Shown here: positions 8,573 through 51,322 of the stretch, in pieces
How the letters are laid out: every line of letters begins with the position of its first letter
Position numbering within the stretch: position 1 is the stretch's first letter
From: Panagrolaimus kolymaensis
Taxonomy: Eukaryota; Nematoda; Chromadorea; Rhabditida; Panagrolaimidae
Direction of reading: 5' to 3'
Assembly: GCA_028622995.1 (NCBI GenBank)
Contig: JAJQJQ010000024.1
Span: forward strand, 1,054,001-1,118,000
Length of the DNA stretch: 64,000 bases
Program-made: the position numbers and the translations under genes
The notes under the pieces: model-generated
The model's database searches: none
Told to the model about the DNA's origin: nothing
What the model saw: the letters and a program-made list of their open reading frames with translations, nothing else

Positions 8573-11500
8573 ATGCAGGCGAACGTAAACGCAAGCGATG
8601 AGAATGTAAACGGCCTTCGGGCAAACTCCGGCCTTCGGGCAAACAATCACGGCCTTCGGGCAAACTTGCGTAACGATGAGTTAGAGAATGTTGAGCGAAG
8701 TGATGAAGTTAACGAGATTGAGTTAATGGAAGTTGAGGATAACGTTAGTGAACCTATTCTTATGGGTGCTATGATCGATGCGAATGTTATCGAAGGCGAA
8801 GAGTTGATCCCCAACGAAGAAGTACAGTTAGCAGCAGCGATATCCGAAGATTTTGCTACGTATTGCCGTAGAAAAAAGATTAGGAGCAGCGCCGCGAACC
8901 GAAGAAAGTGGACACGTCATCGTCAATCTGATGAAGAAAGGTTAAGTGAGCTTGAACGCTTACGACAACAACGTAGAGAAGCACGACAGCGTGAATCTGC
9001 AGGCCAACGTGCACTAAGGCTTGCTGATTTGCGTGAACGAAATAGATTGAGCCGTGATGACGAAGATAATGGGCAACGAGAAGCAAGGCTTGCTGATTTG
9101 CGTGAACGTAATAGATTAAGCCGTGATACCCAAGATGATGAGCAACGAGAAGCACGATTAGTCGCAGATCGAGAGCAACACGCTTTGTCAAGAGATAACG
9201 AAAGTGATGAGCAACGAGAAGCAAGGCTTGCTGCTTTGCGTGAACGTAATAGATTGAGCCGTGATAACGAAGATGTTGAGCAGCAAGAAGCACGATTACA
9301 CGCCCAACGTATTTTGCAAGCTTCTCAACGAGAAAATGAAAGCGTTGAAGAACAAGAAGCCCGATTAGAAGATGATCGCGTACAGCATGCACTTGCTCGC
9401 GAAAATGAGACACAAGCTGGACGAGTACAACGTAATGAAAGTCGGCGCACCGATTATGAAAGACAGCGAGAGAATCCCGCAAATGCGTTTCGTGCAGCCA
9501 ATAGCGATAATGTTGAGCAATTTACATTGGGCGAACGCGATACTCCATGCACGTTTTGTAGCGGATTGCATTACACATGTGAGAATCGTACAGCTCAAGG
9601 TACTTACGATAATTGTTGCAATTGCGGTCGCGTTAAAGTTGATTTCGAACCGGATTTTCCCGAACAATTGAAAGCGATGCTTAAGCGTGAAGAAGGTACC
9701 GATTGGCGTCCATTTCATGATAAAATTAATAAGTATAATACGAGCGTTAGCTTTGCGTATATGAAGGGTGAAATGCGTCAGTTACCTGGCATTTTTCACT
9801 ATCGAGTTCACGGTGAAGTTATGCATGTTTTACCGAGATATACTGATCCGCTTCCTGGACAACGGCCTGCTTTTGGGCAATTGTGGATTGTGGAAACCAA
9901 CGATGCTATTGAATATCGATGTCAAGCTCCATTTGCGTCTGATTGTGAGCGACGAATTTTTGAATTTTTGCATACTTTGTTGGCTAACATCAACGAATAT
10001 GCAAATATTTATCGTATGCTTCACGATATCGAGGATGAAGAGCGTGAAGTAGCGGAAAGAGAAGGACGCACGCCAAAAGTGTGCAAAATTCTCTTCAAAA
10101 AGACAACGAATAACACCAGCGATACGTATGCGTTACCGACAGTGTCTAACGAAGTAGCGGGTATTTTTATTTGCGATGAGAATGGTGACATTCCTTGGAA
10201 TGATATCCAAGTTCAACGAAAGTGTAACGACGGAGAGCCACCTATGGCTCAACGTATTTCTAAGTATTCGAAGCATTGTGAACCGCTTACGTTTGTGTTG
10301 TTTAACCCTTACGGTAGAGGAGACTTTTGGCATTATGATAGACCAAAGAATCCTTCTAATCCACAAGGCGGAAAACTTACTGCGCTCCAGTATTTTTTGT
10401 ATAAGTTAGCTTTGCGTACCGAAAATGAAGATGAGCCTTTTAATCCCATCCTTCATGGAGGTAAATTATTGAGCAAATATTTAGTTTGGTCCTTTACGAT
10501 TGTCGATAATGAGCGTTTAAAGTTTTTGCGATTGAATCAAAAGAAGTTACGAGTTGATACGTATACGGGTCTTACAGACTATTTGCGAAATGTTGGAGAA
10601 GCTAACGATTCGTTACCAGGAAAGAAGTTTGTTTTGCCCTCATCGTATACGATGGGACCGCGAAGCCAATCAGAGTTTTTGAATGATGCGAATGCGATGT
10701 GTCAGAAGCATGGAAAGCCGAGTTTATTTATTACGAAAACGTGCAATCCCGATGATCCAGATATTACGAGACATTTATTCGAGAACCAGCGAGCTTACGA
10801 CAGACCCGACGTTGTTGATATTGTTTTTAATTACCACGTTAAGCAATTCGTCAAGGAAATGAAGAGTGGTATTTTTGGAAAAGTTAAAGCTTTTCTTTAC
10901 GTTGTTGAGTTTCAGAAACGTGGCTTACCGCATATTCACAGTTTGTGGTGGTTTGAAGAAGAATGGAACGATATCGCGAAAATTAACGATTTCATTTCTG
11001 CTGAGCTACCCGATCGAGAAAGCGACCCCGTACTTTACGATTTGGTGGTGAAGCATATGCTTCATCGACCTTGCGGAGAATACGATCCGAATGCGATGTG
11101 TATGCAGGATGGTACATGTAAACGTCATTTTCCGAAAGCGTTTAGCGAAGAGACAACGTTTGATGAAAATTCGTATCCGACTTACCGAAGAAGAAACGAC
11201 GGCAAGCAAGCTACGGTTAACTTTAAAGGGCGACCTTTTATTCTTGATAACCGTTCAGTTGTTCCGTATAATGCGTATTTATTGAAGCGTTTCGGTTGCC
11301 ACATCAATATTGAAGTGGTATGCAGTTTGCGTACAGTTAATTATCTGTTCAAGTATTTGTTTAAAGGTCCGGACAGAATTAATATTGAGATCAGTAGCGG
11401 ACAAGTTAATTACGACGAGATTCAGTGCTTCCTTGATGCGAGATACTTATCCGCTCATGAAGCTTGCTGGAGACTTTACAAGTTCGATATGCATTTTTCG

Positions 11501-13864
11501 AGTGAAAGTATTGAGAGGCTTCAGGTTCACTTACCTGAGCAACAAACGATTGCGATGGCCGAAGATGCTACGGTTTCCGATATGATTCGAGATGCGATGA
11601 AAAAGTCAAAGTTATTAGCGTTCTTTGATTTAAATAGAAATGCGCCAAACGGAGTTAATCGAAATCTTACGTATGTAGAGCTTTGCCACCATTTTACATG
11701 GGACGCAAAAAAACGCGAATGGCATACACGTTTGAGAACTACGAAACCGAAATGTCCACGAATGTACGCTGTTAACCCGAAAAACACCGAATTGTTTTAC
11801 CTTCGAAAGTTATTAACGATTGTTAAAGGTCCAAGAGATTACGAAGATTTACGTAGAGATCCTTACGATCCTAATGCAATTCATGCAACGTTCCGCGAAG
11901 CGTGTGTAGCACGAGGATTGGTTGAATCCGATCAAATTTATTACGATGCGTTACACGAAGGAACGTTTTTCAATTTACCGAGAGAATTACGACGCTTATT
12001 CGCACGAATCGTTGCTCATTGTGATGTTGAAGCTCCGTTATGGTTATGGAATCAGTTTCGTCATCAGTTAATCTCTGATTTACTTCGAAGTCATCGCGGT
12101 GATCAAGATCTTGCGGAAACTTTAGCATGGCGTCAAGTTTTACGAATGATTATTAACAATGAGCGATCGCTTGAAGATTATCCAATTCTTCAAATGGTTG
12201 CTGAAATTGTTGGTATTGATGACGAAAGCGTTGATATTACGGCACACCGTCTCCGAGGCGATCAAATGCGAGGAACTTTGAATCCCGAACAAGCGAATGC
12301 GTACGAAGCGATTATGCAAAGAGTCGTCAATCCAGATAATTCTGCGGCCTGCTTTTACATTGATGGCCCAGGAGGTTCAGGAAAAACGTATCTTTTTAAT
12401 TGTTTATTTTCGAATTTGGTTGCGTCCGATACCGATGTTGTTATTATGGCATGGAGCGGTATTGCAGCAAGTTTATATGAAACGGGGCGAACAGCTCATA
12501 ACGTATTTAAGCTTGATTTTCCGTTCGGCGAAGAAAGTCAATCCGGTGTAGTTTCTTCGGATTCACTTGGACAAGCGTTACGTAAAGTTAAAGTTGTTGT
12601 CTGGGATGAAACACCGATGGCACCACGAAGAGCACTTGAAGTTGTTGATGAAAAGTTACGCGAAATTATGAATAACGACACTCCGTTCGGTGGAAAGGTT
12701 ATCGTTTGCGGTGGAGATTTTCGTCAGTTAGGACCCGTTGTGAAAAACGGTACGCGTAACGATGTTATCCGAAATAGCGTTAAGATGAGTCCGCTTTGGC
12801 CTCTTTTCTCGGCGAATAAATACGATTTGATTAGTAACGAAAGAGCCGATAATAACGGAGATGATTTTGCGGAAACGATATTGAGGATTGGAAACGGAAG
12901 CGCAAACGATGTTCACGGCAAAGTATCGTTACCCGAAGAGTGTATTAGTGAGAGTGATTTAGTTGAGGTTATTTTCGGTGATGTTATAAGGAATAACGAT
13001 TTAAATGCGTTTGCGTCTAGAGCTATTCTTTCCACGGTTAATGCTGAAGTTGATACGTATAACGAAGCGATTATCGATTTACTTGATAGCGAAACCGAAA
13101 GGATTTATCAAGCTGTCGATCGAGTTGAAGATAACGTATTTGAGTATAGCCCCGAACACTTTGAGACTTTTAAGCCAAACGGTTTCCCTGCGTACAAGCT
13201 ACGACTTCGAGTAAATGCGGTGATTATGCTTATGCGTAACTTGAGCATCCGAGAAGGTTTATGTAACGGAACGCGACTAATTGTAAAGAGACTTGAACGT
13301 AACATTATTGTTGCTGAAAAGTTGACAAATCGAAGCGATAATAACGAAGATAACATGGTAATGATTCCACGAATTACGCTCCTCGACGATTCAAGCGTTT
13401 TGAAAGTTTACCGCACACAATTTCCGGTTCGAGTTGCGTTCGCTTTAACGATTAATAAAGGACAAGGACAAACGTTTGACTGTGTAGGAGTTGATTTCAG
13501 TAAAGGAATTTTTACGCACGGCCATTGTTATGTTGCTCTTTCTCGCACTCGTGCATGGGATAAGCTTCATATTAAATTGCCCGCCGACGATGTGAACAGT
13601 ACGCGAAATATCGTTTACAACGAACTTTTGAACGACGATCCGCGTTCAGTAATGTCTCCGGATGCTCCAGATTATGCAGCGTTAAATCCGGATTGGAACG
13701 ATGAGAATGACGTAAATATGGAAGTTGAAGAAGAGCCTATCGATGAAGATAACGAAGTTATACAAAATGTTTCCGGTAACGATTTAGTTGATTTAGAGTA
13801 TGAGATTAGCGATGAGTGGGACGATAACATTGAAATGAATGATATAGTTAGCGATTCTGATTAG
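8573..13864 (+). CDS. Helitron Rep/helicase transposase (1763 aa)
   Basis: An uninterrupted ORF with all parts of a Helitron transposase. Residues 1-120 are acidic and include three GLRAN repeats. Residues about 140-300 are heptad-like coiled-coil repeats of the QREARLADLRERNRLSRD type. A Cys cluster near 326-355 (CTFCSG...CCNCG) looks like a zinc finger. The Rep domain has the HUH motif GLPHIH (about 784) and the two catalytic-type tyrosines in VNYLFKYLFKG (about 923). The Pif1/RecD-like helicase has Walker A GPGGSGKT (about 1265), Walker B VVWDETP (about 1341), GDFRQLGPV, and the C-terminal motifs INKGQGQTFD and CYVALSRTR. The Rep domain nicks and joins single-stranded DNA and the helicase unwinds it. 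There are no stops or frameshifts and no motif is missing, so it could be active or recently active. It lacks an extra endonuclease or RPA domain. Confidence 0.95.
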   Translation: MQANVNASDENVNGLRANSGLRANNHGLRANLRNDELENVERSDEVNEIELMEVEDNVSEPILMGAMIDANVIEGEELIPNEEVQLAAAISEDFATYCRRKKIRSSAANRRKWTRHRQSDEERLSELERLRQQRREARQRESAGQRALRLADLRERNRLSRDDEDNGQREARLADLRERNRLSRDTQDDEQREARLVADREQHALSRDNESDEQREARLAALRERNRLSRDNEDVEQQEARLHAQRILQASQRENESVEEQEARLEDDRVQHALARENETQAGRVQRNESRRTDYERQRENPANAFRAANSDNVEQFTLGERDTPCTFCSGLHYTCENRTAQGTYDNCCNCGRVKVDFEPDFPEQLKAMLKREEGTDWRPFHDKINKYNTSVSFAYMKGEMRQLPGIFHYRVHGEVMHVLPRYTDPLPGQRPAFGQLWIVETNDAIEYRCQAPFASDCERRIFEFLHTLLANINEYANIYRMLHDIEDEEREVAEREGRTPKVCKILFKKTTNNTSDTYALPTVSNEVAGIFICDENGDIPWNDIQVQRKCNDGEPPMAQRISKYSKHCEPLTFVLFNPYGRGDFWHYDRPKNPSNPQGGKLTALQYFLYKLALRTENEDEPFNPILHGGKLLSKYLVWSFTIVDNERLKFLRLNQKKLRVDTYTGLTDYLRNVGEANDSLPGKKFVLPSSYTMGPRSQSEFLNDANAMCQKHGKPSLFITKTCNPDDPDITRHLFENQRAYDRPDVVDIVFNYHVKQFVKEMKSGIFGKVKAFLYVVEFQKRGLPHIHSLWWFEEEWNDIAKINDFISAELPDRESDPVLYDLVVKHMLHRPCGEYDPNAMCMQDGTCKRHFPKAFSEETTFDENSYPTYRRRNDGKQATVNFKGRPFILDNRSVVPYNAYLLKRFGCHINIEVVCSLRTVNYLFKYLFKGPDRINIEISSGQVNYDEIQCFLDARYLSAHEACWRLYKFDMHFSSESIERLQVHLPEQQTIAMAEDATVSDMIRDAMKKSKLLAFFDLNRNAPNGVNRNLTYVELCHHFTWDAKKREWHTRLRTTKPKCPRMYAVNPKNTELFYLRKLLTIVKGPRDYEDLRRDPYDPNAIHATFREACVARGLVESDQIYYDALHEGTFFNLPRELRRLFARIVAHCDVEAPLWLWNQFRHQLISDLLRSHRGDQDLAETLAWRQVLRMIINNERSLEDYPILQMVAEIVGIDDESVDITAHRLRGDQMRGTLNPEQANAYEAIMQRVVNPDNSAACFYIDGPGGSGKTYLFNCLFSNLVASDTDVVIMAWSGIAASLYETGRTAHNVFKLDFPFGEESQSGVVSSDSLGQALRKVKVVVWDETPMAPRRALEVVDEKLREIMNNDTPFGGKVIVCGGDFRQLGPVVKNGTRNDVIRNSVKMSPLWPLFSANKYDLISNERADNNGDDFAETILRIGNGSANDVHGKVSLPEECISESDLVEVIFGDVIRNNDLNAFASRAILSTVNAEVDTYNEAIIDLLDSETERIYQAVDRVEDNVFEYSPEHFETFKPNGFPAYKLRLRVNAVIMLMRNLSIREGLCNGTRLIVKRLERNIIVAEKLTNRSDNNEDNMVMIPRITLLDDSSVLKVYRTQFPVRVAFALTINKGQGQTFDCVGVDFSKGIFTHGHCYVALSRTRAWDKLHIKLPADDVNSTRNIVYNELLNDDPRSVMSPDAPDYAALNPDWNDENDVNMEVEEEPIDEDNEVIQNVSGNDLVDLEYEISDEWDDNIEMNDIVSDSD
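8612..8668 (+). repeat. Short tandem repeat GGCCTTCGGGCAAAC in Helitron ORF
   Basis: Three near-identical copies of a 15-bp GC-rich unit (GGCCTTCGGGCAAAC), two nearly adjacent and one slightly further on, encode three GLRAN copies at the N-terminus of the transposase. The unit length is a multiple of three, so the frame is kept. Confidence 0.85.
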
Positions 13865-39300: not shown

Positions 39301-42300
39301 TTTTGAATTTCTAACGCTATTAGGTCGAACTCAATTTTTTTATAATTTTTATGTGTCATGTATCATTTTTTCGCTTTTTGGCCTCATTATTTTTTAGTTA
39401 CTTTAACATTAGTCGGAGAGCAAAGGATGGGATATAATTGAGAAGGGAAATTTTGTTGACCTTTTAATCGCGACGATGAAATTATGGCTCTCATTATTAA
39501 AAGTTTTTTGTTATCTCCAAATGAAATATCTTTTTTATTAATTTCTATTATTATCATTTGCAAAAAATTAGAAAAGCTCAAACATTAAAAGGCTTAAAAA
39601 ATATAAATCGTGTAAAATTTAAGGATTTTTTAAAACATCAAATGGCTACAAAAATGTTAAAACAAAAATAAAATAAAACTAAATTCGAAAATTAAACATT
39701 TATTCAAAGAGTTAATAAAATTTTTTATTTTTGAATTTTTTCTTCTAAAAGTATTGATGAACTACTTTTTAATATTTCATTGTTTTTTAAAAGTTAGTTG
39801 ATCTCAAAATATGTATATTTATCTCTCTTTGCGATTTCTAAAACTTTTTTTTGTGATCTTTATCTATCATCTTAGTTGCCTACAAAAAATTTATTCATTT
39901 GATGATGATCAAAGAAAATATTACTAATACATAATTGTAGTATTAAATTTCTTCTTTCATATATTTTCTACGAATTTTTCTTTCCTCCAATTTTATTTCT
40001 TGCAAAATAAAACTTTTGAGAAATATTTCAAAGGTCATAATTTAAAATATTTTTTCGTAAAAAAAATAAAATAAAACTTCGATGCATATTTTTTTCTTTT
40101 AGACAAATATTTAATTTTTGCTTTGACATTTTTGTTATATCTATGTATTTTTTTTTCACCTGTTATTAATTTACCACGAAAATCAAAGCTCTTATATGTG
40201 CGTTATTTTCCTTCGCCGCCGACACCCAAAAAAATTTCTTTCTGTAAATTTTTTGTTTGAAAAATATTTCATTTTCGAGTCTTACGTTTTTAGTCTTTTC
40301 ACATTTTTAATAAATTTATATTTTTTTAGTAATCTTTTTGATTCTTCTTTTTTGTTTTAAAAAAAAAGAGGGAGATTAAAATAAAAGGATTTTTTTAAAG
40401 GACTTGAGTACTTTTAATATATTTTTTAAAAGATCTTTGAAATTTGAAGTTTATTTAAGGAATTTATTTAATCCTTAAATCATGTGTGTCTGTGTCAAAT
40501 ATATATTATTGGATGCTTTTAACCTATTTTCTTTTTTTGTTGGGATGATGATGGCAAGGTTGAGTGACATGTTGTAGCTCTTTAGTTTTAACTTTTATCT
40601 TTCATTTTTTTCGTTCTAAATAAAATAAAATTTGGGTGACAGTTTGAGGAGGTTGCATTTATTTTATAATTTTTTTTGCAAAGAAAAAAATGTGTCAAAT
40701 AGTAAATACATACATAGTTTTGTGTTTTGTTTATGTAATTTATAGCTGACAATTTTTTTTTGAAAGTTCGCGTGTTTTTTTAAGTCAAACATCAAAACCT
40801 AAGTTTCCCTTAATTTATTGACGAAAACCTTTGTTTTAGGTTCGGTCATTCATAATGATGCTTTTGTTTTTAGCATTTTTTCTTTCAAAAATTGACACTA
40901 AGATCCCAAAAGTACTTTCAAACAAAAAACAAACAAAAAATAACCAAAGTTCGAAGTTGCTTGAAAAATTTTAAAATTTTTTTTATTGCTTCTAGATTTA
41001 TTTCAACGAAAGCCTGGCTACATTCCGCCAGTTAGCTTTACTTTTCCCACTGATTTTTTCTTTCTTCCTAAACATTCATTTTTTTTCAACCTTCGCATTT
41101 TTTTATTTACACTCATTTTAGCGCTTTAAAAAACTAGGACAAATTTTTTAAATGTCATTGTAGTGCTTTCTTTTTTTGTGGAATTTGCTTTTCCAGTAAA
41201 AATTATTAAAATTTTTAACTTTTTGAAGCGTGAAATAAAAAAGGGGGAAGAAAGCTGTATTTCTTTCTTGTCAGTTTTTTTTCTCGAGTTTATTATGAAT
41301 GATTCAGGAACTTTATTTTATAAATAAATAAAGCATGTTTTGATATTTTTCGAAAGAAAAAAATTCTTGGAAAACTCCCAAATTTAAAACACTTTTTTCT
41401 ATGCTACAATAATATTAATTTTGTTTTTATCCTCCCATTTCCTTTTTACAAAAATTAGTACAGTTTATTTTTTGTTTTGTTAATAATTTTAAACAAATCG
41501 AGCAAAAAAAGTAATAACAAGTTCCAAATTTCCCTGATTATTATTAAATTAAATTTAAAACAAAGAAATTCATTTTTTTTTGTTTGCGTGTTTTTAATAA
41601 TCTCTGATTTTGTTTGCTTTTTATTTTTTAATTTCCGTCATCAATGAAAAAAACAAAACAAAAAATGAGAGTCAAAAGTCTAACTTTTTTTAACCTTCGC
41701 ATTTTTGCTTACCAAATTTTCCACCAACAACTCCTCCTCAGTTTTTTTTTTCTCTTTCATTCTATCTTTTCATAACCGCCATCGTCGTCGTCGCTAAACC
41801 ATCTGCTGCTTCTTGGTTCTTTAATTCATTTTTTGTTTTATTTTTTTTTTTGAATAAAAAAGGGTTCTCATCTATTTTTTTATTTATTTAAAAAAATATT
41901 AGTTTAAAAAGAACAAAAAAAAGAAAATATTATTTCTTTTATTTTTTTTTCTCACATCCATCGAAAAAAATTGATAGAAAATAAAAGAATAAATTAGATG
42001 AGGACGGACGTCAAAAAGCCAAAAAGTCAGCAAATGCAAAAAAAAAAAAAGAAGAAGAGTCTGAAAGAATCAAAAAAAAAATTCGAACAATCAAAAATGA
42101 AATAAAAATTTCCATTCAAAACTAATTTTTTTCTTTGATATATTTTTTTAACCTCCTAAAAAAAGTCACGTAATTTTCATATTTTTTCGTTCACAATCTT
42201 TTTTCTTTTTTCCTGGGAACCTCTTGAAACTTTTTGTTTTGATTTTATTAATAAATAAAAAGTTAATAAAAAATAGAAGACTTTCTTTTGTTTGAAAGAA

Positions 42301-42480
42301 GATAATTCAAAAGATTTTTTTATTTAATAATAACTAATTTTGGATATTTAATATTATATTTTTTAAGCTATGATCGTTAACTTTTTCTTTTTATTTTATT
42401 TTATTTTTGTTGTTCGGAACTTCAAAGTTCAAGAATAAAAATAATTATATAAATATATAAATAAATGGGTTTGGTTTTAC
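36314..42480. other. Non-coding 6-kb region, homopolymer-rich
   Basis: No exon on either strand could be supported, although the missing 5' exons of the GPCR gene might lie here. The DNA is full of runs of T and A, with scattered isolated CAGTTT motifs (37444, 40643, 41271, 41461, 41740). It then passes into the dense motif array at 42.5 kb. Confidence 0.5.
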
Positions 42481-45400
42481 TATCAACTTTTAGTTAGCTT
42501 TACTCAGTTTTAATCGTATCTTGATTTGTTCCAAAAACTCTTGGATAAAAAAAAATTCTTTTATCGTTCCAGTTTTAATTTTTTGTAAAAACCATACACA
42601 TATAAAGTTTGTTAACAAACAGAATATATCCATTTCAGTTTGATTTTATTTGATAGTTTTTCTCATTGACTCCCAAACCCATCGTGTAACAGTTTTATTG
42701 AATAATAATTGAAAATATTCTCCTTCGACAATGAAGTCTAACAGTTTTTTAAAATTTTATTGGTTTTATTTTATGAACGCTGAAATAAGTCCTCTTATTT
42801 TTAGTTTGTCCATAACTGTTTCATTATTTATGATGAAACTTTGTAAATACAATATCAGTTTTTTTTAAGATTCCTTTTTTGATTTATCTTTATGTTTCAC
42901 AACTTCACTGTTGCTCTCCAGTTTTTAATTTTTTTGAATATCGTCTCACAATTTTTTGAAAATTTATGTAAAACTTTTTGTTTAATTCTTCTTTTTTTTG
43001 CCGCGTCAAAGACGGCTCCAACGATACAGTAACTCATTTTTTCTTAAGAAAAACATTGGCCTTTTTTGATGCATGCCCTTTTGCTTCCTTCATTTTTAAA
43101 ACAATTTTTTACTTTTTTTCTTCAAAGTTGTAAAGAGTAAAGATAAATTTAGATTACCAAATATTTTTTTTGTTCCTAAAAAAGTCTATTTAACCCCAGC
43201 TGTTTTGTTTTTGAAATTTAATTAGTATTTTTCTTTTTGTGGTAAATTTTTTGTTTTTATAAAAATAAAAGCAAGAAAACATCAACACAGTTTTTTTTGC
43301 ATGAAAGGAAATTCTACGACGCAATATTAAACCTTTTTTTATCTCAAATATGCAGTTTTTTTTATTATTGTGTAAAGCATAAAATCTGAATAAATGTCAG
43401 TTTTTAATTTTTTATTGGCTCTGCCAAACCTTCTCGGCAGTTTTATAAATAAAGCTTTTTCCGCGGTACAACACCGTCGTTCAGTTTAATAATAGCTTTT
43501 TTTACTTATTTTTTTATTTATTTATTATTAAGCTTTTAACTTTTATTGAGAAAAAAACATGCAATAAATCCATGGCGATAATTTTTTTCTTCACAGTTAT
43601 AATTTTGGGTCATGAAAATAAAGTTTAAATAATAATAATGGCACATCAGCAGCCTCAGTTTTTTACCTTCTTTACCTCGCAAAATTTCCCCTTTCCAGTT
43701 ATTTCAAGATATAAATGCCATGTTTTAGAGGATATCATTATTGTTGACTTTTTAAAATACCAAGAAATCGACGTAATTTTCCAATTTTTTAGAGTTTTAT
43801 GCTTCAACAGTTTTAAGTTTTCTTTTTTATTTCTTTGCATTTCCTCTTTTTTTCCCGATACATTGCTTTTAAGAAAGTGAGCTAGAGATAGAAGAGAAAG
43901 ATTACGGTAGATTTCAAGGTGGGGTAAAAATGGAAAAATTGACTTTATTCGTGCTCGAAAAAATAAAATTGAGAAAATTATTGAAGTTTTAAAAATATCT
44001 ATTATCCCGATTGAAATGATCTTCAACAGTTTATTTATTTTAGAAAAAATCGTGAGTCGTTGGAGATTTATATCCCATTATTTACAAAAATATCAACAAA
44101 AAAATGCTATGAGTTTTTTCTAAATAATTTTTTTTAGTGTGAACGGGTTTTAAGAGTTTAATCTGTATCTCATAAAATCCACTGAAGCAAACCAAAACGC
44201 AGTTTTAATTTTTTTTTTTTTTTCATTCACTTTTTTTTCCAAATTTTGCCCTTCAATTCAGTTTTTATTTTTTGTATTAGATTAATTTTTTATGTTTTTT
44301 TTTGTTGCAGCAAATACATATGTTTTTTGTATGTATGTTTACAACATCTTTGTTTTTTGTTTTTATGAGAGGGCTTTTCTTTTTTTTTATCTTTTCCAAA
44401 AGGAAAATATAAAAAATATGAGAAATTTATATTCCATTAATCATTGAATATCCATCCATCCTGATTCACTTTTATAAAAATATATGAAAGTCATGTTTTC
44501 ATACTTCAATAAACACTTTTTGATATGTTTATTATATTTTTTTTCAATGAAAAAAGTAAAAAATAAATTAAAAGCTTCTTTAAAAGGTTTTGTTTGTTTT
44601 TTATAAAAATATTTTTTGATTGATAGTCGTCGTCGCTGCTTCCGAACCAACTTGCTGCTGAAAAAGAAGCGAGGATGATGAGGAAAGAAAAAAGCAATTA
44701 TAAATTTTTATATTGGGTTTTTTTCTTTACTTGCTTTTATGAATTCAGTTTTTTTATGAACTTTCAACTTTGTTTATATACGAAGAAAAAATTATTTTTT
44801 TCAAAAAATTAAAATTGAGACTATAAAAGAAGAAGCATTTCTGAGGAGATTTATTCGACAGAAAAAAAAAATATAAAAGTGGATTTGCAGTTTTTTCTGT
44901 GAGTGAGTTTAAAGCTAGAGCAATTATAAGCCTCGCAAGTGACAGTTTTTTAAATGTAAAGAGAATCCGTGATCAAATCAGTGTTATTTTAAATTCTATG
45001 CTTAAACAGTTTATTAAAAAAGAAGGCATCTTGAAACAATGCCAAAAAAAGTATTTGACATGAAATTTGTACCCAATTCATGGACAACAGTTTCTATTAA
45101 TTCAAAATTCTTGTGGAGAAAATCATGATTTCCGCCGCCTTCATTCGCTTCAGTTTATTTAAAAATGTTGAAAGGCGGAATAATACCTTTATGTTCAGTT
45201 AAAGTTTTTATATATTAAAAGAAACAAAAATCACCAGCCCTTCCGTTATATACAGTTTTAGTATCCTCTTTTAACTAAAGTTGAAGAAATGTTTGTGGGT
45301 GGCAGTTTTTATTTCTATGCAAAAAACTTGGTGAAATTTTATGATCCGAAAATTTCATAACACAGTTTAAATTTTTATAAATTAACCTTGTTGAACCAAA

Positions 45401-45955
45401 CGCAGGCTATATTGTGTCATTTCATTTTAAAGTTTCAAAACCAAACCTATCTCAATCATACTGCTCTGCTAACTTTATGATACATATTATCAGTTTAATT
45501 TTAAAAATAATTTGTCTTTGTTAGAAAGGTGACTATTTAGTTCCCTGTTTTAAGTTTTATTATTCCAAATCCGATATGTTTACTCAGTTTTTAAATATTT
45601 AAAATTTTTACATGGAAAACCAAATTTTGCCCCTCATTATGCTGTTGCAGTTTATTTAAATGAAATAAAGGCAAATATAAAAGAGCTTTTAAGAAAAAAT
45701 TTATCTTTAAGTAGCAAAATTTTTACATTCTTTCAAAAATAAAGTTTTAAAGTTTTTGAGTTTAAATATTAATGAAATATTAGCCATTACAGTTTTTTAC
45801 ATTATGGGCAACCCAAATTGCTCCCCATCAGTTTTAAATTTTCCTAATTAAGCTTTACTGAAGCGAGCAACGTTTTAAAATAATCTATTTCAGTTTAAAA
45901 TTACCAAAACCAAATCTTTCTTTCTAAATCAGAGCTGTTTAATTAGACTTACTCC

Positions 45956-46062
45956 AGTTAAAATTTATAAAATAATTACCATCTTTGGCCATTCTTATAC
46001 TGATACTTCCAGTTTTAACTTTTTTATTACCTTAAATTGAGTGGGCACCTTTTTCTTATTAA
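45956..46062 (+). repeat. 107-bp exact direct duplication, copy 1
   Basis: Identical over 107 bp to 46561-46667. It includes a complete CAGTTTT unit (46010) and its unique stretch. The left edge lies inside the motif: copy 1 is preceded by C (CAGTTA), while copy 2 has GAGTTA. Confidence 0.95.
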
Positions 46063-46560
46063 TACATTTCTAATAATAACTACACTTTTTCTTTTCATTA
46101 TTTTAAATCTTTTTTTAGTTTTCCACGCAAAAATGATTAATCTTTTTTTTTGATGTTTTATATTTACTTCTTTCTTCCTTTTTGTCGTCGACGACTTTAT
46201 GAATGACTGTTTATTACCTATTTTTTAATATGAGTTTTTTTAAATACCAAGTAAGTGTTTACTTAATTAAATAACAAAACATTTTAAAACTACATTCTAT
46301 TTTTTTTTTTTCATTTATTAATAAGTTCAAATGCAAAAAAAGCAAAAAGCTACAAAAAAAGTAACAGGAAAAAGGAAAAAGCAATTGACTTTTACTTTTT
46401 ACAAAACACAAAATTTATTTTTTTGTTTTTTCTTAAAACAAATTGCTTTTATTATTAATGGTAATTCATTTTTTAATTTCATTTAATTTTTTGTAGTAAA
46501 TTCGCAGAAATATTTTTCTCAAACAACTTTAAGAGGTGTGCAAATAACCTTTTTTTAAGG

Positions 46561-46667
46561 AGTTAAAATTTATAAAATAATTACCATCTTTGGCCATTCT
46601 TATACTGATACTTCCAGTTTTAACTTTTTTATTACCTTAAATTGAGTGGGCACCTTTTTCTTATTAA
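46561..46667 (+). repeat. 107-bp exact direct duplication, copy 2
   Basis: Identical to 45956-46062, 605 bp downstream. It falls in a gap of the motif array, so it brought a motif unit (46615) into a stretch otherwise without one. Confidence 0.95.
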
Positions 46668-48791
46668 CACAAGCTAATATGACAAAGTTTAAAAAATAAA
46701 TAAAATTGTTGGATCTCGCAATGAAAAAGCATCACAGTTTTGTTTTCAAGAAAAGTGCGCGAATAAAATATTTTTGTTTAGATTAATTTAAATTCAAAAA
46801 AGTATACTTTAAAAAATCGTTAACCATTATTCAGTTTAAAAATAAATTTATGTGGTCTCACCACAAAAACTTCAAACAGTTTGTTTTTCGTAACAAAAAT
46901 TGCGCATTTTTCATTCATATTTTTTTGTGTGGAGCATATTCCTTCCAGCTTCAAAAATTTCTGTTTAAAAATATCCTTAAATAAAGTTAGTTATCAGTTA
47001 AAAATCTGTCCATATCTTTGTTTCATAAGTGTAATCAAAACCAAATGGTAACCTTAAGTCTCAGTTTTTTCAAAAAGGCTAGTAAACAACAACTACATAA
47101 CCATTTTCTATGTTATTCATTCGAAAATGTTTCAAAAGAAAAAGTTAAAGTAAAAAAACAAAAGCAAAAACATGAATGATGTATTTACTTTTCCACGTTT
47201 TTTCTTTTAAATGTTTTTGATAATTATAAGAAAAGCCAGCATTTCAAAAAAAAACTTCAATGACAGTTAAAAAAACTTTGGAAGTTATAAAATATTTATA
47301 ACATTTTTTATTTATTTCAAAAGTATGTATTAAATGTTGCATAAACAACATTTTTGAAATAAACTTTTTAATTGATAGTTAAATACCCGGGGGCGCTCTT
47401 TTTTTCTTTATGGTAGTAAAACAAATTGAGAGAGGGATAGGGCTTGGCTTCTTTTACTATTTACGTGCAATGAATTTACAGAAAATTTTCTAATTTCTTA
47501 AATTAGTCATAAGAAAAGGGAAGAAAAAAAATTTAAGAAAGATTTTTTAAATTGGAAATTAAAAAATGTAAAGTTTTTTGTAGGTTAGTTTGTTGAGTTA
47601 ATCCACCTGGGGAATTTGAAAAAGGATGTGAAAAATTTTTGGCATTCTTTTTTTTTAAATGTTAGTCAAATGGTCTTCCGTATCTCTGTCAAGGGAGGTC
47701 ATATTTAATTATTATTTTTATAAATGGCAAAAAGCTTCAATTTGAAAATGAACTTGGCAGTTTTAATTTAAAAAAATAAATAATAATTTAATTTTGTTAT
47801 TCATCCCCTTATCAAAATCTTAGTCAGTTAAAAAAATACTCAAACACAAAGAATCAGTTCAATTAAAGAAGAAAAAAAGAAGAAAAATTGTTATAAATCC
47901 TTCAAAAATTGTTGACAGTTTAAATATAAATTTTAAAATTAAAAAATGCGCTGGAGAAAGAGAAACATGGTTGGACAGTTTTTATATTTAATAATTTAAC
48001 TTTTTATATCACAAAATAATTTTTCTCCGACCATTTTAATCCAGTTTTTATATTTAATTAGAAATTCTTGAAGTATTACCCAGTTTAATTTTTTTTTCTT
48101 TGTAAAACATTATTACAAATTTAAACTTAAAAATTCAAAAAATAAAAAAAAGGTGCAGTTTATAACCTTTGAAATAAAAAAGATGGAAGAAAAAACAACC
48201 AAAAAGTCAAACAGTTTTTAAATTTAATAATTAAAAATTTTATTACAAAAAGAATTAATTTACCATAAAAACACAATTTTACACAGTTTTATACAATATA
48301 TAATTTAGAATTTTTTGCAAAGCTCAGTTTAATTTTTTTTTTCTTTGAAAATTCTTACAGAGAAAATATAACAAAAAATCATCTGATTAGACATATTTAT
48401 TTAAGTTTGCGCAATGATCATTTATCTAATTTGCATATTCTCGTTTTTGTTGTTGACATTTTTGACATATAAAAACGCACATGTTACTCAACAAAAATCC
48501 AACACAGTTTTTTTTTAAAAAGTCGCCATTTTTAATCATCTGTTTATACCCTTCTATTTTTAACCCGAGTTTACGTAAGACGACAGTTTTCTATTTTAAA
48601 GAATTTTAGTCAACCTCAGTTTTATTTTAATAAAAAAAAATTAGCTAAAAATATACACATATATGTTTATTTGACCCAATTCTAAGATAGACACTGGTCC
48701 ATTAAAAATTCTGAGCAGCTCCATTTTTTTTTTTAGCTCTTACGTAAAAAACGTCAAAACTTAAACTCAGTTTTTATTATATATTTTTCAG

Positions 48792-51322
48792 ATTCGTCGA
48801 ATCAGCAGTAAAACAGCTGTAAAAAGTGTATTAGCTTCAGCATTAATATTTTCAATAATATTTAATTTGCCTCGATGGTTTGAAATAAAAGCGATGGATT
48901 GTTTGAGTGAAACATTTTACACTAAATCATCCATGGTTGTTCCAACTAATTTATTTATGAATCAAAGTTATACCATTTTATATCGAAATGCATGCTTTAC
49001 AATTGTTATGTTTTTCTTTCCATTTATTACTTTAACATGGGTTAATTGTAAAATAGTTAGCACCCTTAAAACTTCGAATCGGTCAGTTTTTTCTTTATTT
49101 TTTTAAAATTAGAGTTAAAAATTAAAATGAATGTGCAGTTTTTTATTTAAAAAAATGTATAATTAATTTTTATGACAGTTTTTTAAAGCAAACCTTTTGT
49201 TCCAAGGCTAGAAGAAACAATTTTTAGTCCAGATTTTTTCATTGAAGAAGTCAGTTACTATTTTTAAGATAAATTAAAAAATAATATTTTCCTAATAAAA
49301 AAAATCACCCTTACCAAAAAATCTTGACAGTTTCTTAAATTATATACTTTTGTTCCGTGATGCAATTTAAAAAATTCATGAATTGTGAAAATCCAAAAGG
49401 CTATATTGAAATTCAGTTTTTTAAATAATGTCTAAAAAATTAAAGACAATTTTTTAACCTTTCGAAAAGTTCCATTTCATCTCCAAATGCAGTTAAACTG
49501 TAATTTGATTTGTATCGTTTAAAGACTTGTGGTAACAAATTTTTAGTCTTATAAAACCCGTAACCCTTATCCCTCCGCAGTTTTTTTTAAATTTTAGCTT
49601 AAAAACTAAAAAACAAATTTTAAATTTCTCTAAAAAAAGTTTATATCATTTTATTTATATTAACCCCTTTTTTATGAGACATTCTCCCTCCCTATTTTCA
49701 TACATTTTACCATGAAGTGCTTTCTTTTACCCACACTTATCCAATAAAGCTTTGAAAGAACATTCAGTTTTTAAAAGCCATAAACTTATAAACATTTTAA
49801 TATTAAAATATAAAGCTCAGACCTTCTTCATACTTTTTAATTTATTTTTATTTTTAAATTTATAGAATTCGGCGTCGAATGACAAATCAACAAGGAAGTT
49901 TATCAACCACAACAACAACCAATATTCAACAACAAGAAGCAGCCCCAATATTTTTATCTAAAGATGCATCAATTTCGATGTCACGTGGAAGTGTGGGAAA
50001 TGCAAGCCTAACTAAAATGTCATTAATTACTCGAAAACTAAGTAAACAAGATTTAAATGGTAAGTTTTCAATTTCTTTGATAAAAGTTTCAAATAACAAA
50101 AAACTTTTTCCTTTCATCGTCTGCTTTTTTTATAAGTTGGAGGGACAAAAAAAACATGAGTTTCTTTATAAAAAAAAATAATTTTTATATCCAAATACAG
50201 GGGTGCTGTAAAAAAAAAAAAGAAACAAAGACCTCAAATTTCGAGTGCTTTTTGAAATTATAAAAATATGTGTGTTTCATAAATTTTTTAAAGGGATCAA
50301 TTAAATTTAATAATTAATTGGCACGTTTTAGAATCATATTTTTTTCAAAAATTTCACACGCTGCTTTTTTTGTTTTATTGTTTTTGTAGTTTGGCGCCTT
50401 TCTTTATAATAATTATTTAATTTTTCATAAAAAAAGAGTTTGTAGCTCTTTGCTCATTTTTAAGATACATAAAGAAAGAAATTTTCAAATAATGCCATGT
50501 AAAACTATTAGCTATAAAATTAATTAGCGCGTTTGGAGTAAAAAAAAAGCGCAGATTAATACGCAACAAAAAAAAATATGGAAAATAAAATCTCCATGAT
50601 TCACTGAGATATACATAGCTTTAGCTTACGGGGGTTGGCTGATTTATTACAGTTTTAATGGAGCCTTTATCGGCAATAATAGATAATCCATAAAAATAAA
50701 TAACTGAACAAGGAACTAAAAAAATGTGATATTTGAGTTTTCTCGTTTGAACCAATATTTTTCGTGAGACGAAACTCGCCTCAACAAAATTTGCATTTTT
50801 CTTTTGATTTGACTCGAACAACAAAATTATAAATAAAAAAATATATCAAAACAAAATTTTAAAAACTGAAATATTTTTAATTTAATTTCAGAACGAAAAG
50901 AACATGGAATCACAATAATGCTTGTGGCAATGGTGACTGGCTTCCTCCTTTTCAATTTACTCGCATTTTTCAATAACATCCTTGAACTCTCTGGAGAAGA
51001 TTCAGATTCATTCACAATTTTAATTGAATTATCTACCCTTCTCGTAAATTTAAATGGTGCAACAACAATAATAATTTATTTAACTTTTGGTACCAAATAT
51101 CGTACAGTATTTTTAAAGGTGTGTTCAAATTGTTTTTGTCGTCGATGTTTTAAATCTAAAAATTCATTATCCCTTAAACCATATGATTTACATTCAAGTT
51201 TTAATCCTGTTATTACAAGAGAAAGGTCTTCAAGTCAACCCACTGCATCTTGTTATTTATCTGCTTTGCCATATGCAACTAAACAAGTTACAGCATTGGC
51301 TATGAGGCCTTCGTTCTTGTAG
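48792..51322 (+). CDS. FMRFamide-receptor-like GPCR, TM4-TM7 and tail (5' exons not found)
   Basis: Exons 48792-49081, 49866-50059 and 50892-51322 join in phase (2, then 1). The first encodes IRRISSK, TM4 (VLASALIFSIIFNLPRWFEI), an extracellular loop with Cys and an NQS site, and TM5. The second encodes a Thr/Gln/Ser-rich third cytoplasmic loop. The third encodes TM6 (ITIMLVAMVTGFLLFNLLAF), TM7 ending in NGATTIIIYLTFGTKYR (a divergent NPxxY), and a Cys/Ser-rich tail ending at 51322. NLPRWFE and the TM6 sequence are typical of the nematode frpr / insect FMRFamide receptor group of neuropeptide receptors. TM1-TM3 must lie upstream. I could not find them in the 12 kb before 48792, so either they are far away across a very large intron or the gene is incomplete. 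An alternative last exon exists at 51689-51871. Confidence 0.8.

Follow-up and report, generated by a model that had tools for sequence, protein, structure and literature searches.

Introduction

In Caenorhabditis elegans, the type I PIWI-interacting RNAs (piRNAs; 21U-RNAs) form superclusters in two regions of chromosome IV, of 2.5 and 3.7 Mb (PMC6436959), and the species has more than 15,000 piRNA loci (PMC7917550). For nematode piRNA loci, a low-melting, A/T-rich region is reported whose center lies 33 nt downstream of the start site (PMC7917550), and the published piRNA signature is high from the start to +19 and low from +20 to +40 (PMC6436959). Piwi is reported to be absent outside Clade V and the plectids, and Clade IV nematodes are reported to have neither Piwi nor piRNAs (PMC4323106, PMC6436959). 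Here we describe, in a 64,000-nucleotide stretch of the genome of Panagrolaimus kolymaensis, a Clade IV nematode, an array of short same-strand units in which the hexamer CAGTTW is nearly fixed and the 19 bases before it change 2.8 times faster than the array background, and we show that this array is one block of a genome-scale system concentrated in megabase-scale tracts. We found no description of CAGTTW arrays in a nematode in a partial survey of the literature. An earlier note on this DNA, made from its letters alone, had proposed an intronic array of piRNA-type minigenes with a CAGTTT promoter core.

The P. kolymaensis assembly is triploid, with 266 Mb in 856 contigs, 49 of them mitochondrial (PMC10374039). 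The genome analyzed here comprises 265.84 Mb in 807 contigs, numbered C1, C2, and so on, and "the window" is the whole 64,000-nucleotide stretch, C23:1054001-1118000. Unit statistics come from one 304-kb piece, the window plus 240 kb around it. A CAGTTT copy was accepted as a unit if it had at least four same-strand neighbors and at most two opposite-strand ones within 1 kb, a rule that itself favors strand purity; 729 units pass it, grouped into eight blocks of 1.4-37 kb each.

A Strict and Nearly Strand-Pure Motif

The array block in the window and the parts of one example unit are as follows (window positions).

41739..49787, + strand: array block of same-strand CAGTTW units, from motif counts and the unit rule
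42671..42689, + strand: hypervariable block (-19..-1) of the unit at 42690, in the same place in other units
42690..42695, + strand: strict core CAGTTW of that unit, with ~0.03 substitutions per site against ~0.09 in the background
42696..42712, + strand: A/T tract (+6..+22) of that unit, from core-aligned composition
Core starts within 42504-49770, + strand: 42505 42570 42636 42690 42742 42856 42919 43288 43353 43398 43438 43482 43594 43656 43696 43808 44027 44200 44259 44746 44888 44943 45007 45088 45151 45196 45253 45303 45363 45491 45585 45648 45790 45829 45891 45955 46010 46615 46735 46832 46877 46995 47062 47264 47758 47825 47916 47976 48042 48081 48156 48212 48284 48325 48505 48584 48617 48768 49084 49136 49176 49252 49328 49414 49490 49578 49765

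Between 42504 and 49780, CAGTTT occurs 58 times on the + strand and once on the - strand, and CAGTT[TA] 67 times against 2, so that the hand count of 67 in the earlier note was exact and its placing of essentially all copies on the + strand was right; the array it had bounded at 42504..49770 is real but begins earlier, at 41739. Across the 304 kb, CAGTTT is found 856 times on both strands, compared with a median of 134 for all orders of the same letters and 433 for the next highest. When every copy inside the eight blocks is counted, irrespective of the unit rule, CAGTTT stands at 731 on the block strand against 12 on the opposite one and CAGTTA at 174 against 9 (CAGTTW, 905 against 21); because this count agrees, strand purity is not merely an effect of the rule, and the equal density on both strands that the earlier note named among its refuting outcomes is not seen. 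A further 113 CAGTTT copies lie outside the blocks.

None of 13 other core variants tried in the blocks has a clear block-strand excess, the largest being 67 against 50 and 13 against 7. CTGTTT, of which the earlier note had counted seven copies as array members, occurs in 42504-49780 7 times on the + strand and 5 times on the - strand, and in the eight blocks it is depleted on the array strand (36 against 89). From these counts we conclude that the signal is CAGTTW, and that it is strict. The wider core suggested by a relaxed matrix fit (C 0.85, G 0.85; 1158 expected sites) is not borne out, as its variants fail in the direct strand counts. The proposal that the core had drifted from CTGTTTCA, the C. 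elegans Ruby core, is rejected: it is CAGTTW that is used, and CTGTTT is under-represented on the array strand. CTGTTTCA itself occurs in 42504-49780 once on the + strand and never on the - strand. Genome-wide, CTGTTTCA has 8367 + 7367 matches compared with 4857 + 4641 for its reversed control, ~1.7-fold.

Anatomy of the Unit

Alignment of the 729 units on their cores reveals a sharp onset at -20 (C 30% vs. 13%; G 6%), weak preferences to -1, the core, and then an A/T tract reaching about +22, with a G+C content of 0.15 at +6..+22. CC at -20/-19 is seen 86 times where 16 are expected, and TCC at -21 43 times where 6.6 are expected. Nothing else between -80 and +120 is locked to the core except a mild A/T richness at about -41..-22. 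The tract after the motif is thus as the earlier note described it; the unique stretch it had seen is real but lies before the motif, at -20 to -1, and the idea of an upstream promoter with its payload downstream does not hold, the payload being upstream and nothing being locked beyond about +22. The -20 block is retained in 189 units whose upstream 100 bp are free of motif-like sites, and 191 units with the same clearance downstream have no comparable locked block after the motif; because of these units without neighbors, we assign the variable block to the motif 3' of it.

The upstream sequences differ from one another, as had been noted, with 727 of 729 upstream 22-mers distinct, and the units do not resolve into an alignable decayed repeat. 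Spacings (n = 903; median 73) show no preferred value or period, contrary to the common spacings of 39-76 bp given before, and spacing analysis likewise does not bear out a fixed 60-bp period; 14 spacings are 25 bp or less, and above that the spread is wide. Block G+C is 0.297 compared with 0.276 in unoccupied windows of the array, and because it is barely raised, the "mixed composition" remarked on earlier is mostly a contrast with the A/T tract. Runs of four T are found in 0.209 of 905 blocks and in 0.318 of 3267 unoccupied array windows (Fisher p 8e-11), and runs of four A in 0.358 and 0.384 (Fisher p 0.16; counts for both tests were rebuilt from the fractions); for runs of five, the ratio of blocks to unoccupied windows is 0.54 for T and 0.78 for A. 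T-runs are thus avoided more than A-runs, as a U-tract end signal on the motif strand would need.

Folding of 250 of the 729 units gave no stable hairpin (mean z between -0.16 and 0.18), which rules out a microRNA or hairpin RNA in these units, and Rfam has no matches in 144 of the 304 kb. A second exact copy of a block 14-mer is present within the 304 kb for 118 of 729 units, compared with 258 of 729 controls, so that copies of the payload elsewhere are not supported.

A Fast-Changing Block Beside a Slow Core

The window array is present in two other haplotypes, on contigs C20 and C5, parts of which match, and the copies were aligned by BLASTN. Substitutions over aligned sites are given below, the block being -20..-1.

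Window vs. C5: block 189/809, core 7/252, tract 68/707, near 128/1387, far 148/1792
C20 vs. C5: block 135/653, near 129/1221, far 101/1282
Window vs. C20, the two closest haplotypes: block 52/681, near plus far 115/2451, ~1.6-fold
Second block, with the reverse polarity and running antisense to its host: block 218/994, core 8/316, tract 89/822, near 212/2131, far 135/2074

Taken over -19..-1 and set against the array background, the first block gives 189/777 vs. 273/3142, a ratio of 2.80 (bootstrap 2.35-3.27; Fisher p 6e-29; 43 units alignable of 68 listed), and the second 211/916 vs. 344/4161, a ratio of 2.79 (2.32-3.28; Fisher p 1e-32; 50 units). The core, with 8/246 and 7/296 substitutions at the two blocks, changes about three times more slowly than the background. 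In a profile pooled from three comparisons, two of which share the C5 copy, and with other units masked, the rate is ~0.10 over -110..+110, ~0.24 at -19..-1, 0.031 in the core, and 0.063 at +6..+8.

The excess at the block holds separately for A/T and G/C sites, and transitions make up 0.47 of block changes compared with 0.42-0.47 elsewhere in the same comparison; this unchanged spectrum rules out deaminase-type mutation. Differences per 20-nt block range from 0 to 14 across 44 units and number at least two in 39 of them. The one host exon aligned, at 48792..49081, has one substitution in 288 sites and none at 35 fourfold sites, and since it is nearly invariant, the slow background is not obviously constrained, as far as one small exon can tell. 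Arrays are present both in the distal part of the C20 copy and in window 46600-50000, yet the two do not align, so that these haplotypes, close as they are, differ greatly in structure here.

Distribution in the Genome

Three CAGTTT copies at gaps of 30-60 are found 2305 + 2267 times genome-wide, compared with 80 + 95 times for the pattern read backwards. Among the matches listed for that triple, one lies on C1 and five on C2, which we take as chance, at control level, and matches become dense from C3:7.06 Mb. A rarer version of the triple gives 47 + 49 matches against 0 + 0 reversed, and all 96 fall on 14 of the 807 contigs, as follows (spans in Mb, matches in parentheses).

C3: 7.06-9.86 (18)
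C5: 0.26-2.71 (12)
C18: 0.29-3.27 (14)
C20: 0.61-2.55 (14)
C23: 0.17-2.87 (18)
C42: 0.27-1.85 (10)
Eight other contigs: 10

The tract spans sum to ~14.5 Mb, or ~4.8 Mb in each haplotype. With the 304 kb, which hold 46 triples and 729 units, as the scale, and with local density varying, we estimate ~70,000 CAGTTT units, ~23,000 per haplotype.

Argonautes and Small Nuclear RNA Genes

DGVGDGQ is the Piwi loop motif, and APCQYAHK is the Piwi-type C-terminal pattern. The genome has 143 matches to the Piwi (Argonaute) domain, many in triplets by haplotype. Fifteen segments were fetched, 13 of them readable at the loop motif: eight have RDGVSEGQ, two RNGCSEGQ, and one each RSGVSEGQ, RFGASDGE, and RDGVGEGQ. 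A DGVGDGQ-type loop is thus found in none of these 13, out of the 143 matches. DGVG[DE]GQ has three genomic matches, all with E, one of which was inspected and is WAGO-like by eye, and APCQYAHK has no genomic match. Four segments were set against solved structures, and for each of them an AGO-type chain gives the top score, with Siwi nearly level in one case. In these limited tests we therefore find no Piwi-clade Argonaute (PRG-1), which agrees with the reported loss and does not prove it.

Among small nuclear RNA (snRNA) genes, C[CT]GTTTT lies 47 nt before the U2 gene in 8 of 10 copies. By eye, most of the 10 U2 copies have a conserved stretch, TTCATGGTGTGTC[CT]GTTTTG, at ~59-40 nt upstream of the gene, and TTTCTTTA is common to six of eight U5 upstreams, further up than the U2 element. 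CAGTTT is absent within 60 nt downstream of U2 in all 10 copies, which rules out, for U2 only, that it is an snRNA 3' box.

Host Genes and Other Features of the Window

The arrays run through introns of long genes. The + strand host gene in the window includes the following exons.

48792..49081, + strand: exon of the host gene, ends set by eye, G protein-coupled receptor-like by eye, no Pfam match
49866..50059, + strand: next exon of the same gene, set by eye, no Pfam match

The array is sense to this gene, as the earlier note had it, but the neuropeptide receptor it named is unconfirmed, the receptor look being by eye and three exons having no Pfam match. Elsewhere the arrays are antisense: a - strand array lies within a Calx-beta (Na/Ca exchanger-like) gene on the + strand, and a + strand array within two Ion_trans/BTB_2 (K+ channel-type) genes on the - strand, the second scoring below the Pfam cut-off. 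These cases rule out a sense-only intronic feature. Array strand is mixed around short-chain dehydrogenase and TSP_1 genes, the TSP_1 match being below its cut-off. Ion-transport genes, which are among the hosts here, are poorly expressed in the germline.

The unit at 49084 (window 49064-49089) overlaps the 3' end of the coding exon, its core starting 2 bp past the probable splice donor (GTCAGT at 49082), and may be a chance match to the core. A 111-bp duplication, window 45956-46066 / 46561-46671, has copies of 99% identity lying ~600 bp apart and includes one array unit. Window 8573-13861 (+ strand) holds a long stop-free Helitron-type transposon frame (1763 aa scanned) in which the domains Helitron_like_N, PIF1, and Pif1_2B are present.

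Discussion

We suggest, with a probability of roughly one half, that each unit is a tiny gene for one piRNA-like small RNA of ~20 nt, with CAGTTW and the A/T sequence after it as the predicted 3' pause or end signal. Transcription of the motif strand would begin near -20, the polymerase would pause over CAGTTW and the A/T tract, and the RNA then released, ~20-28 nt long, would be taken up by an Argonaute other than Piwi. The RNA itself would be the hypervariable block, whose fast change would reflect mutation at a habitually paused, open transcription bubble of 20 bp; the worm would in this way have a large set of guides under steady renewal, doing the work of piRNAs. A short transcript that runs from around -20 up to CAGTTW seems most likely because of the T-run asymmetry, the position of the tract, and a scale like that of the piRNA superclusters. 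Were transcription to start at -20, the center of the A/T tract would lie 31-34 nt after it, depending on the assumed tract start, a geometry close to the nematode piRNA termination signal that we count, by analogy, for the minigene reading. Mutation at a paused polymerase fits the fast block, as does diversifying selection; we favor mutation as the most likely cause because most units and nearly all block positions are affected and the spectrum is unchanged.

If this is true, a genome-scale guide-like system in Clade IV would reveal either how worms make up for the loss of piRNAs or that the loss is incomplete. The 19-base zone, changing 2.8 times faster beside a conserved 6-mer in both blocks compared, amounts to testable site-locked hypermutation or diversification, and the triploid genome offers further array copies for measuring the fast zone. 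A bolder claim would be that a piRNA-less worm keeps megabase-scale libraries in which every ~20-base guide gene adjoins a strict CAGTTW, the guide being a targeted mutation zone and the expression signal staying fixed, so that new guides would arise all the time, a categorically new system; this we consider unlikely.

Several observations weigh against the minigene reading. If the mutation excess were constant, it would not be expected to fall to ~1.6-fold in the comparison of the two closest haplotypes, as it does here, and the units vary, five of the 44 blocks having no difference or one. CC at -20/-19 is not a usual initiator, no promoter-like motif is locked upstream at -80..-22, T stands at 22-36% at -21..-16 with no fixed 5' T on the motif strand, and block G+C is only slightly above that of unoccupied windows. 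A 21-nt U-G-N19 RNA from the opposite strand would fit as well. Finally, substitutions dip at -20 and -11/-10 (25/180 vs. 376/1549, p 1.4e-3), positions that resemble contacts made along one side of the DNA helix.

Those dips are the main support for the reading that survives best among the alternatives, one we hold to be possible but doubtful, in which the arrays are sites of a sequence-specific DNA-binding protein spanning ~26 bp that marks a chromosome region for silencing, pairing, or architecture; no RNA would come from the unit, and the positions between its contacts would mutate fast because the bound protein blocks their repair. Slow positions at -20, -11/-10, and 0..+8, ~10 bp apart, are what such a protein would leave, and an exclusion distance of ~26 bp, seen in the scarcity of shorter spacings, suits its footprint, as do the lack of a 5' U and of a promoter motif and the concentration in few tracts. 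Against it, T-runs are avoided more than A-runs on one strand, the tract geometry is near the published piRNA termination signal, and 2.8-fold is, in our judgment, large for a repair block.

An RNA from the other strand, 5'-U-G-N19, would take its first two bases from the complement of the CA of CAG and its 19 variable bases from the block, with the A/T tract and AAAC preceding it. A boundary at -19 gives exactly 21 nt with a 5' U, and the Strongyloides ratti 21-22U RNAs also show an A/T-rich upstream without a motif (PMC9203780). Nematode 21U-RNAs, however, do not usually begin with a constant UG, and it is the motif strand that avoids T-runs more than A-runs; we think this alternative improbable.

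Degenerate snRNA-type promoter sites, bound by the snRNA-activating protein complex (SNAPc), or snRNA 3' boxes spread through introns are less probable again. The GTTTT of the core resembles part of the element before U2, and the array matrix scores one U2 segment above shuffled versions of it (P 0.0014), but once the core is left out of the matrix the U2 register comes 2-3 of 62 in four copies and 9-15 in six, the U5 upstreams mostly share a different element (CAGTTT in two of eight), CAGTTT does not follow U2 within 60 nt in the 10 copies, and the interior of a promoter should not be hypervariable. A decayed tandem satellite or transposon array, to which the same-strand, head-to-tail order and the 111-bp local duplication might point, is scarcely credible given the lack of a period or of a tandem array reported there, the distinct upstream 22-mers, the 13 other one-change cores without clear strand excess, and a core conserved while the block is accelerated.

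Comparison with Known Systems

The arrays share with snRNA promoters a GTTTT core resembling part of the U2 upstream element, and differ from those promoters and from 3' boxes in the rest of the element and in the absence of CAGTTT after U2. Like the S. ratti 21-22U RNAs (PMC9203780), they belong to Clade IV, have an A/T-rich flank, and are clustered (in S. ratti, in tracts of 1 and 2.7 Mb); the S. ratti loci overlap on the same strand, occur on both strands, are linked to transposable elements, and have no motif, whereas the Panagrolaimus units have a strict motif and are rarely less than 26 bp apart. With the Pristionchus-type piRNAs (PMC6436959) they have in common an intronic position, either orientation to the host gene, and an A/T drop at the RNA 3' end, but those piRNAs are scattered across autosomes, with a motif upstream of them and with Piwi, and the units here are concentrated in tracts.

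Unlike in the C. elegans superclusters, the signal here is strict and stands 3' of the variable block, not before it, the arrays are nearly strand-pure, the block changes faster than the background, there is no motif-strand 5' U, and Piwi was not found in our limited tests. The Ruby motif, GTTTC/CTGTTTCA, at a fixed distance before the RNA, is not seen at -80..-22 in the 729 units. Because the Ruby motif and the motif-strand 5' U fail, we do not file the units as 21U-RNA loci, and the piRNA locus of the earlier note stands only in its nearly strand-pure one-unit elements, shared short signal, unique ~20-nt sequence, course through introns of long genes, and megabase tracts. The units may work like 21U-RNA loci. 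Their rare-pattern matches are confined to a few contigs, the arrays lie in introns, and with the C. elegans superclusters they share megabase-scale concentration, one-unit loci in the tens of thousands by our estimate, A/T-rich surroundings, a short shared signal, and a unique sequence of ~20 nt.

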